64,000 bases of DNA, taken from the NCBI RefSeq assembly GCF_026000375.1, contig NZ_AP026708.1, positions 2,501 through 66,500 of the forward strand, read 5' to 3'. The notes under the pieces are model-generated. The model did no database searches. It was not told the origin of the DNA and saw only the letters and a list, made by a program, of their open reading frames with translations. The DNA is from Pseudodesulfovibrio portus (GTDB lineage Bacteria; Desulfobacterota; Desulfovibrionia; Desulfovibrionales; Desulfovibrionaceae). Shown one piece after another: positions 50,689 to 52,205 of the stretch (position 1 is the first letter of the stretch; the number at the start of each line of letters is the position of its first letter). Made by a program: the position numbers and the translations under genes.

Positions 50689-51993
50689 TTAGCCCTCTTT
50701 CCTCTTGTCGATGATCCGCTTGGCCTTGCCCATGGACCGTTCGATGGTCTTGGGCTCCACCAGCTTGACCTTGGCGGTGACGCCGAGGAATTCCTTAATG
50801 TTTTTCATTACCTTTGATTCCATCTTCTGTAAACTCTTGATCTCGTCCGAGAAGATGGATTCATTGACCTCCACCTGAACCTCCAGGGAGTCGAGGTTGC
50901 CCTGGCGCTCAACGATGAGCTGGTAGTGTGGGGTCAATCCCTCGGTCTCGATGAGGATGGACTCGATCTGGGACGGGAACACGTTGACGCCGCGAATGAT
51001 GAGCATGTCGTCGGAGCGGCCGGTGACGCGCTTCATGCGGGCCGTGGTGCGGCCGCATTTGCACGGAGTGGTGTTCAGGGTCGTCAGGTCGCGGGTGCGA
51101 TAGCGGATGAGCGGGATGCCTTCCTTGGTCAGGGTGGTGAAGACGAGTTCGCCTTCCTCGCCCGGTGCGACGGGTTCGCCGGTCTGCGGGTCGATGGTCT
51201 CGGCCAGGAAATGGTCCTCCTGGATGTGCAGGCCGTCCTGGGCCTCGTGACACTCGATGGCCACGCCCGGACCCATGATCTCGGACAGGCCGTAGATGTC
51301 GATGGCCGTGATGCCGAGTTTCTTTTCGATTTCAAGCCGCATCTCGTTTGTCCACGGTTCGGCGCCGAAAATGCCGATCCTGAGCGGCAGCTCCCGGATG
51401 TCGATGCCCAGTTCCTGGCCGGTCTCGGCGAGGAACAGGGCGTAGGACGGGGTGCAGCAGATGACGTCGGGCATGAAGTCCTTGAGCAGGGTGACCTGGC
51501 GGCGGGTGGCGCCGCCGGAGATGGGCACGACCGTGGCGCCCAGCGCTTCGGCGCCGTAGTGCGCGCCCAGGCCGCCCGTGAACAGGCCGTAGCCGTAGGC
51601 GTTGTGGACGGTATCGGAGGCGGAGGCGCCTGCCGCCATGAAGCAGCGGGCCATAAGCTCGCCCCAGTTCTCGATGTCGCGCTTGGTATAACCGACCACG
51701 GTGGCCGTGCCGGTGGTGCCGGAGGAGGAGTGGATGCGCACGATCTGGTCCTTGGGCACCGCGAACAAGCCGAAGGGATACTGGTCGCGCAGGTCCTGCT
51801 TGACGGTGAACGGCAGCAGGGTGATGTCCTTCAGGGTCTTGATGTCCTGCGGCTTGATCCCTTTTTCATCAAATTTCTTCTTGTAGAACGGGACGTTGGC
51901 ATACACCCGTTCACACAGCGCCTGAAGCCGCCTGAGCTGGACCAGTTCCAGTTCCTCACGGGGCATGGTTTCGTTTTTTACATCGTAGATCAT
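50689..51993 (-). CDS. paaK: Phenylacetate-CoA ligase (arylacetate-CoA ligase)
   Basis: 434 residues, adenylate-forming enzyme making aryl-CoA from aryl acetate and ATP. Motifs: the AMP-binding loop SSGTTGTATVVGYTKRDI (~95-112), YGLFTGGLGAHYGAEALG, DIYGLSEIMGPGVA, and the C-terminal hinge RSDDMLIIRGVNVFPSQIE. ATG 51993 has AAGGAGG at proper spacing; upstream in-frame codons lie within the attenuator leader. Downstream is the ACT gene. No indolepyruvate ferredoxin oxidoreductase genes occur in the window. Regulation by Phe-dependent attenuation is proposed from the leader. Confidence 0.95.
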   Translation of the reverse strand: MIYDVKNETMPREELELVQLRRLQALCERVYANVPFYKKKFDEKGIKPQDIKTLKDITLLPFTVKQDLRDQYPFGLFAVPKDQIVRIHSSSGTTGTATVVGYTKRDIENWGELMARCFMAAGASASDTVHNAYGYGLFTGGLGAHYGAEALGATVVPISGGATRRQVTLLKDFMPDVICCTPSYALFLAETGQELGIDIRELPLRIGIFGAEPWTNEMRLEIEKKLGITAIDIYGLSEIMGPGVAIECHEAQDGLHIQEDHFLAETIDPQTGEPVAPGEEGELVFTTLTKEGIPLIRYRTRDLTTLNTTPCKCGRTTARMKRVTGRSDDMLIIRGVNVFPSQIESILIETEGLTPHYQLIVERQGNLDSLEVQVEVNESIFSDEIKSLQKMESKVMKNIKEFLGVTAKVKLVEPKTIERSMGKAKRIIDKRKEG

Positions 51994-52044
51994 CCCTTCA
52001 ACCTCCTTCGGTCGGACCTGATCGTCCGTTTCTCTTTCCCTCTC

Positions 52045-52077
52045 AAATAAAAAACCACGGTCTTTCCAGCCCGTGGT
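52045..52077 (-). terminator. attenuator terminator (3:4 hairpin) in the paaK leader
   Basis: On the minus strand ACCACGG (52077-52071) and CCGTGGT (52060-52054) pair around a ten-base loop, followed by TTTTTTATTT. It lies 60 bases before the paaK start codon with no annotated gene upstream on that strand, so it is a leader terminator. Confidence 0.85.
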
Positions 52078-52133
52078 CCCTGTCGGCATTGCTTTGCCAG
52101 TTCAAACTCCACGAGCCTCCGTCAGAAGCCCGT
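52069..52133 (-). promoter_or_regulatory. paaK attenuator: pause (1:2) and antiterminator (2:3) pairings
   Basis: Minus-strand segments: 1 = ACGGGCTT (52133-52126), 2 = AGGCTCGTGG (52118-52109), 3 = CCACGGGC (52076-52069), 4 = the terminator 3' arm. Segment 1 pairs with 2 over 8 bp (with two wobbles), with the leader stop codon in the loop; 2 pairs with 3 over 8-9 bp (one or two wobbles); 3 pairs with 4. Segments 1 and 3 share ACGGGCT, as in classical attenuators. The 2:3 loop holds a nested GGCA/TGCC hairpin. Confidence 0.8.
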
Positions 52134-52169
52134 AAAAAAGAACGCATGCGAAGATGGACATTTTTGCAT
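52122..52169 (-). CDS. Phe-rich leader peptide of the paaK attenuator
   Basis: A 15-codon frame, MQKCPSSHAFFFTGF, with codons TTC-TTT-TTT, then ACG-GGC-TTC and TGA. It resembles the PheL leader peptide of enterobacteria, which also ends in a Phe run followed by Thr. The Phe codons end right before segment 1 of the attenuator, so a ribosome stalled there for lack of Phe-tRNA would cover segment 1 and free segment 2 to pair with 3. No strong Shine-Dalgarno is seen; GGGG is 12 bases upstream. Translation is thus inferred. Confidence 0.7.
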   Translation of the reverse strand: MQKCPSSHAFFFTGF

Positions 52170-52176
52170 AGGCGTG

Positions 52177-52205
52177 AGATTGCCCCATGTTCCCTACCGC
52201 GTCAA
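52177..52205 (-). promoter_or_regulatory. candidate promoter of the paaK leader
   Basis: On the minus strand TTGACG (52205-52200), a 17-base spacer, then CAATCT (52182-52177). It would start transcription at or within a base or two of the leader ATG, giving a leaderless message. A second candidate further upstream is TGTAAT near 52290 with TTGTTG 16 bases before it, which would leave about 110 bases of leader. Confidence 0.4.

Follow-up and report, generated by a model that had tools for sequence, protein, structure and literature searches.

A predicted phenylalanine attenuator ahead of a PaaK-family aryl-CoA ligase gene in Pseudodesulfovibrio

In Pseudodesulfovibrio portus, a gene for a PaaK-family aryl-coenzyme A (CoA) ligase, paaK, is preceded by a leader with the anatomy of a ribosome-mediated phenylalanine (Phe) attenuator. 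The leader region occupies positions 52205-51993 on the minus strand of the window, the whole stretch of 64,000 nucleotides (nt) analysed here (contig NZ_AP026708.1, positions 2,501 to 66,500), and comprises a promoter-like TTGACG-N17-CAATCT element, a short open reading frame (ORF), four pairing segments (arms 1-4), a terminator and the paaK start. We read it as an attenuator of paaK and of an adjoining ACT-domain gene, with PaaK working in the direction that supplies Phe, and give this reading a probability of roughly 0.78. Its parts differ in strength. Judged from sequence comparison, the attenuator is almost certainly real as a conserved device, it very likely senses Phe, and it probably marks a Phe-making role for PaaK.

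The -35 hexamer TTGACG (52200..52205) is followed after 17 nt by a -10-like hexamer, CAATCT (52177..52182), and together they place the predicted transcription start at about 52170. The leader ORF, MQKCPSSHAFFFTGF, covers 52122..52169 including its stop (ATG at 52169, TGA at 52122). Three successive Phe codons, TTC TTT TTT (codons 10-12, 52134..52142), form the predicted stall site and directly abut ACGGGCTT at 52133; a fourth Phe is codon 15. Segment 1, the 5' arm of hairpin 1:2, spans 52124..52137 in the fold, and segment 2 (52107..52120) can pair either with it or, as 52117-52109, with segment 3. Segment 3 (52068..52079) also has two partners, since CCACGGGCT (52076-52068) pairs with segment 2 and GGACCACGG (52079-52071) with segment 4. 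The latter and a T-run make up the intrinsic terminator GACCGTGG TTTTTT (52049..52062, with the six T at 52054-52049), and 55 nt separate the T-run from paaK. A sequence-only reading of the window had described the minus-strand ORF, a Phe run before segment 1 and the four arms; all are present, and the same layout is seen in 35 loci of the genus.

Folding yields both of the alternative states that the sequence-only reading had proposed. The stretch 52137-52049 folds into hairpins 1:2 (52137-52124 with 52120-52107) and 3:4 at -38.0 kcal/mol (z -4.24), and when segment 1 is omitted (52120-52049) hairpin 2:3 forms instead, pairing GGCUCGUGG (52117-52109) with CCACGGGCU (52076-52068) at -25.8 kcal/mol (z -2.96); none of 200 shuffled sequences was as good in either case. 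The same holds for the terminator alone (52080-52045; -15.0 kcal/mol, z -3.76, 0 of 200 shuffles), and the stretch that contains just the ORF and hairpin 1:2 (52170-52093) stands out less (z -2.14, with 7 of 200 shuffles equally good). Some details of the initial description change. Hairpin 1:2 exists but is longer than was first given, the fold showing as many as 14 pairs; the stop codon, assigned to its loop, does sit at the hairpin tip, but its first base is paired; and the T-run terminator that was expected to end a short RNA near 52045 is present, with the predicted end at 52054-52049 instead.

The genus set comprises 36 genomes. PaaK relatives occur in all of them at E <= 0.001, and 35 usable loci contain a paaK ortholog; the 36th genome (G027, 81% complete) has distant PaaK paralogs only and is outside our alignment of the 35 leaders (A1), each of which was cut to start at TTGAC. 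The layout of TTGAC promoter-like element, short ORF and terminator, in most cases with all arms, is found at every one of these loci, and because it recurs in all 35 we regard the device as more than chance. TTGAC is invariant among the aligned leaders, cut as they are to start there, and NANNNT stands at the -10 place, give or take one base, in 32.

In minimum-energy folds of the full leaders, hairpin 1:2 appears in 30 of 35 and 3:4 in 33 of 35. Standard pairs fill 97.9% of alignment cells for 3:4 (slid versions 16-60%), 93.3% for 2:3 (26-47%) and 77.4% for 1:2 (32-48%), the 77.4% being reached by 7 of 500 shuffles. The covariation scores of 2:3 and of 3:4 are each matched by 0 of 500 shuffles, which ignore relatedness among the sequences and so give indications rather than probabilities. 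The compensatory changes anticipated for the arms are found in these two helices: three pairs of 2:3 have changed on both sides (as many in 7 of 500 shuffles), and so has one pair of 3:4 (A-U to G-C, in six sequences). When arm 4 is left out, as on a nascent RNA, at least six pairs between arms 2 and 3 form in 35 of 35 leaders, compared with 352 of 1750 shuffled sequences; in this test and in the codon shuffles below, L107, L109 and L110 were used only up to alignment column 108. The arms are eroded in L107, L108 and L110, and in eroded leaders the pairing between arms 2 and 3 without arm 4 uses other bases than the conserved ones.

Phe accounts for 150 of the 579 in-frame codons in the 35 genus leaders, and for 59 and 70 codons in the other two frames. 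Dinucleotide shuffles of the leader ORFs give a mean of 84 Phe and a maximum of 104, so that 0 of 1000 reach the observed number; the background in six ORFs of the window is 85 Phe in 2331 codons. The predicted conservation of the Phe codons is borne out in the alignment, where columns 71-73 encode Phe in 33 of 35 leaders and columns 77-79 in 30 of 35, with third positions exchanging T and C (columns 71-73: TTC 24, TTT 9). Two adjacent Phe codons occur in 28 leaders and at least three Phe in 29. Exceptions to the placing of Phe before arm 1 and of the stop near hairpin 1:2 are L109, L107 and L110, with stops downstream of arm 2. L107, L108 and L110 (Pseudodesulfovibrio pelocollis type), as well as L106 and L099, are Phe-poor yet retain the terminator, which would mean that the switch has decayed or now reads another signal; the upstream sequence of L107 is that of the P. 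pelocollis record L008.

All aligned leaders share the ATG, which lies 36 nt from TTGAC in 31 of 35 leaders, 37 nt in three and 35 nt in one. Because this near-fixed spacing and the 17-nt spacer put the predicted transcription start within about a base of the ATG, the leader mRNA is predicted to be leaderless. There is no space for a Shine-Dalgarno sequence between the -10 element and the ATG. The stretch from terminator to paaK, 26-79 nt long in the sequences inspected, shows no promoter by eye.

Taken together, these features suggest the following course of events. RNA polymerase would start at about 52170, and a ribosome would begin on the leaderless mRNA. With Phe plentiful, the ribosome would reach the stop and mask arm 2, leaving arm 3 to pair with arm 4, and the transcript would end near 52049. 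When Phe is scarce and charged Phe-tRNA low, the ribosome would halt on codons 10-12 with arm 1 covered; 2:3 would then form before arm 4 is made, allowing read-through into paaK and the ACT gene. The logic of this switch leads us to expect that PaaK ligates phenylacetate to CoA, and that IorAB, encoded elsewhere, reductively carboxylates the resulting phenylacetyl-CoA to phenylpyruvate, which would be transaminated to Phe.

The gene paaK (50689..51993, minus strand, ATG at 51993) matches TIGR02155, PF14535 and PF00501. Its full-length score against the NCBIfam model TIGR02155, 626.3 bits, is below the curated cut-off of 646.3, and we therefore file the product only as a PaaK-family aryl-CoA ligase. 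The neighbouring gene (50231..50662, minus strand) encodes a protein with a pair of ACT domains (PF19571 ACT_8, E 6.9e-29) and is probably co-transcribed with paaK. As the sequence-only reading had it, the ACT gene stands downstream of paaK: it follows at 19-78 nt in 28 of the 28 loci that are long enough, the other seven ending too early. Two more PaaK paralogs are present in the host (G000:C1:693324-694601 and 2799537-2800793; 46% and 43% identity). At one locus, L116 (G006), paaK appears broken into two frames with its leader still in place; the break may be a sequencing error or a real loss.

Consistent with a biosynthetic role, all 36 genus genomes have iorA at E <= 1e-100 (over the cut-off in 35), and the host genome has iorAB. 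There the pair is unlinked to paaK; iorA is over its cut-off and iorB falls in its family but below the cut-off. No leader, in the sense of an aromatic-rich short ORF with a terminator, was seen before iorA in the host, the one genome inspected for it. All but two of the 36 genus genomes have prephenate dehydratase (PDT); the completeness of the two exceptions is 87% and 82%. In the host, ADH synthase, 3-dehydroquinate synthase II and chorismate mutase-prephenate dehydratase are over their cut-offs, a TyrA-like protein is below its cut-offs, and aroA and the trp genes of that row are assigned by eye alone. Since genes for de novo Phe synthesis are present, paaK would be an addition to that route and no substitute for it.

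Beyond the genus, we searched 288 genomes of the family with a covariance model (R1) trained on 30 of the 35 leaders (A3), excluding the near-duplicate L086 and the degenerate L106, L107, L108 and L110. R1 matches 43 of the 288 genomes (32 in the genus, 10 in genus g34 and one in g37), once in each and always just upstream of paaK. Thirty of these matches are the training sequences, which match by construction, and 13 lie beyond the training set (two in the genus, 10 in g34, one in g37). The scan applied strict filters and scored 14 candidates per genome, so that weak copies may be lost; within that scope it found no further copy of a paaK-type leader elsewhere in the 288 genomes. R1 also misses G247 and G253, though their leaders are directly seen.

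Sixty paaK upstream regions from other genera were fetched, among the matches listed, and 11 of them combine a terminator with a Phe-rich ORF that has the expected spacing: nine of 15 in g34, and the single region obtained from each of g37 and g4. The nine make up a second alignment (A2); the six g34 regions outside it, without a Phe-rich ORF at the expected spacing, are from G232, G233, G234, G235, G239 and G242. In the g34 leaders (e.g. MFNHDFFTFFFFFFFKTEI), 68 of 161 codons are Phe. One of them, L120, has a G-to-A change in arm 3 (CCACAGGC for CCACGGGC in its relatives), with a matching C-to-T in both alternative partners, arm 2 (GCTTGTGG) and arm 4 (CCTGTGG). In most g34 leaders arm 1 pairs chiefly around the stop codon (GACT...AGTC), and there the ribosome itself, rather than hairpin 1:2, may mask arm 2. 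TTGAC lies within 250 nt of paaK in 45 of the 49 regions without the leader, and in g25 three of six regions retain a terminator-like hairpin without a Phe-rich ORF. A Phe-containing ORF in L131 was set aside as a leader, being at least 40 amino acids long and without a terminator.

Two short elements accompany the leader. The motif GGGGCA/GGGCA stands before the -10 hexamer and overlaps its first two bases (52186-52181 in the window); it recurs in the paaK promoters of many relatives, among them genera that lack the leader, and may be an operator or an extended promoter element. Between the terminator and the paaK Shine-Dalgarno sequence (AAGGAGG, 52002..52008) lies a small stem-loop, CGGAC-GATCAG-GTCCG (52013..52028). 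Many relatives have GGCC-GATNNA-GGCC at the equivalent place, and the stem reads GGAC/GTCC in the window and GGTC/GACC in L091 and L100, variants that point to conservation of the hairpin; it is absent in some relatives (L101, L109, L114).

A second leader of similar design stands before the aro-phe-tyr-trp operon of the host. There the ORF MKTTTVSNAYFSNFYFWYWYSHARGLGRGAV precedes the ADH synthase gene (G000:C1, L183 11500-12080, minus strand). Besides the host locus, we sampled 20 of the 33 further PDT places in the genus (L217-L236). Such an ORF begins 36-39 nt after TTGAC in 21 of 21 loci, and all 21 have a hairpin of the form GGGCCGC...GCCGGCGGCCC, with a T-run in most and a weak one in L223. 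Phe, tyrosine (Tyr) and tryptophan (Trp) together make up 186 of 627 in-frame codons, compared with 56 and 87 out of frame, and 500 shuffles give a mean of 90.6 and a maximum of 113. By eye, the 3' part of the ORF pairs with the 5' arm of the terminator in four of 21 leaders (L223, L225, L232, L234), a possible antiterminator, and in the other 17 the terminator wins in the predicted fold. The leader was also recognized by eye in 19 of 20 regions from nine other genera (L237-L256), a non-random sample from the upper part of the matches listed; the one miss, L249, is itself a second paralog within one genome. These sequences make the aro leader a candidate composite aromatic attenuator.

The two leaders differ in what they appear to read. 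The aro leaders contain 78 Phe, 75 Tyr and 33 Trp codons, and the paaK leaders 150, 12 and seven. That the same bacteria write all three aromatic residues before the aro operon and nearly Phe alone before paaK supports a Phe-specific role of the paaK leader. We lean slightly towards a wider picture, in which Desulfovibrionaceae would use two tiers of leaderless attenuation: a widespread leader reading Phe, Tyr and Trp for the aro operon and, in some genera, a Phe-only leader for PaaK and the ACT protein, with IorAB fixing CO2 onto phenylacetyl-CoA as a second route to Phe.

Several observations weigh against the Phe-supplying attenuator. The PaaK score is just under the curated cut-off, with substrate and direction predicted only, and the host has the genes of the de novo route, so that paaK is not the sole supply. 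Among the other-genera regions, again of the matches listed, 49 of 60 (six of them in g34) are without a Phe leader and terminator at the expected spacing. R1 misses G012, G001 and G002, the genomes of L107, L108 and L110. Six of the 35 genus leaders have at most two Phe (one in L099 and L106; two in L105, L108, L110 and L116), and the three of L107 are few for its longer ORF. The pairing statistics are uneven as well. As many pair types as in 2:3 occur in 59 of 500 shuffles; for 3:4, neither the both-side changes (371 of 500) nor the pair types (500 of 500) exceed the shuffles; and related sequences can outscore such covariation shuffles without any structure. In 1:2, where compensatory changes were also expected, covariation does not rise above the shuffles (reached by 126 of 500), which makes this hairpin the least supported. 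Finally, with arm 1 removed and arm 4 present, the equilibrium fold is 3:4 in 21 of 35 leaders, 2:3 in 13 and neither in one. Since 3:4 is preferred at equilibrium in those 21, the 2:3 antiterminator must win kinetically in many species; the antiterminators of classical attenuators likewise act kinetically.

The alternative that survives best accepts a true Phe attenuator and assigns the enzyme a degradative or other purpose, such as arylacetate detoxification or ACT-mediated sensing, with low Phe serving as a proxy for poor growth. In its favour, the host has de novo Phe genes, and the Bacteroides thetaiotaomicron indolepyruvate:ferredoxin oxidoreductase (IOR) reportedly takes part in conversion of Phe to phenylacetate, according to a passage of PMC13285125. 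However, it would be odd to induce a degradation by lack of its own substrate, and the nearly Phe-only composition of the paaK leaders, set beside the mixed leader of the aro operon, argues in the same direction. AMP-forming ligases as a rule favour the synthesis of acyl-CoA, and the source just cited suggests a biosynthetic role in Bacteroides (PMC13285125, in part). We consider this alternative improbable.

Less probable still, and in our view very unlikely, is that the hairpins form a constitutive or otherwise regulated terminator, or a source of small RNA, with the Phe-rich ORF reflecting incidental T-richness. Six genus leaders with at most two Phe do retain the terminator, as do, in the form of a terminator-like hairpin without a Phe leader, the other-genera regions L122, L176, L177, L138, L174 and L175. 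Yet the Phe enrichment is specific to the frame (150 against 59 and 70) and beyond the shuffles, with third positions that vary between T and C, and a plain terminator does not need arm 2, which is nevertheless conserved and covaries with arm 3. Control of the terminator by another RNA regulator (T-box, riboswitch or RNA-binding protein) is scarcely credible, since it fits a terminator upstream of an amino-acid-related gene but leaves the Phe ORF abutting arm 1 unexplained, and a T-box, riboswitch or known Rfam leader was rejected because nothing in Rfam 15 matches above its gathering score near the leader. A permissive Rfam 15 scan up to E 10 returned only two chance-level matches there (E 4.3 and 9.4), and RF01859, which we take to be the enterobacterial Phe leader family, did not match the leader even up to that threshold.

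If the two-tier circuit holds, a pathway that has been interpreted in either direction in other anaerobes would be shown by its regulation to run towards synthesis here. Arylacetate-CoA ligases and IOR could in principle serve either the synthesis or the breakdown of aromatic amino acids, and each of these roles has been proposed in the literature for Bacteroides, as passages of PMC13285125 indicate: IOR sits with an AMP-forming arylacetate-CoA ligase, a biosynthetic role is suggested there, and the same paper also cites a role of IOR in phenylacetate formation from Phe in B. thetaiotaomicron. An attenuator on paaK that responds to Phe starvation would point to synthesis on independent grounds, from the sequence itself. 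In Desulfovibrionaceae, leader-peptide attenuation would then also cover a CoA-ligase gene, with a start that is predicted to be leaderless. Study of the paaK leader also brought to light the second leader, seen in ten genera, that appears to read three aromatic amino acids together.

Among known systems, pheL resembles the paaK leader in its stall-dependent 2:3 antiterminator and 3:4 terminator. Escherichia coli pheL-pheA, as mentioned in a passage of PMC11802643, likewise places a short Phe leader ORF before the gene, under control by charged Phe-tRNA. In contrast, the target here is an aryl-CoA ligase gene with its ACT gene rather than pheA, and the paaK leader is without a Shine-Dalgarno sequence, has a near-fixed -35-to-ATG spacing that predicts a leaderless start, and has no Rfam match. 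A leader transcript starting at the ATG of the leader ORF, which is predicted here, is described for trpL of Sinorhizobium meliloti in the part of PMC7298713 that we cite; that system differs in its Trp codons, its trpE(G) target and its alphaproteobacterial host. Upstream of Corynebacterium glutamicum aroF, aroR encodes a Phe-Tyr-Phe leader peptide that responds to Phe limitation and controls DAHP synthase (PMC11802643, in part), and is nearer in kind to the aro operon leader than to the paaK leader. For the metabolic half of our proposal, the closest parallel is aryl-acid salvage in methanogens through a reversed IOR, named in a passage of PMC13285125, in which arylacetate-CoA ligase and IOR are proposed to make aromatic amino acids; here the evidence is regulatory anatomy and not enzymology, and the host iorAB is unlinked to paaK. 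As the sequence-only reading had supposed, no attenuator described for paaK was found in searches for attenuators in an open-access collection, outside which most subscription papers lie, and the passages of PMC2965389, PMC5764234 and PMC545781 at hand contain no Phe leader or paaK control in Desulfovibrio. The class of mechanism proposed here is already known; its target gene and its lineage appear to be new relative to the literature searched.

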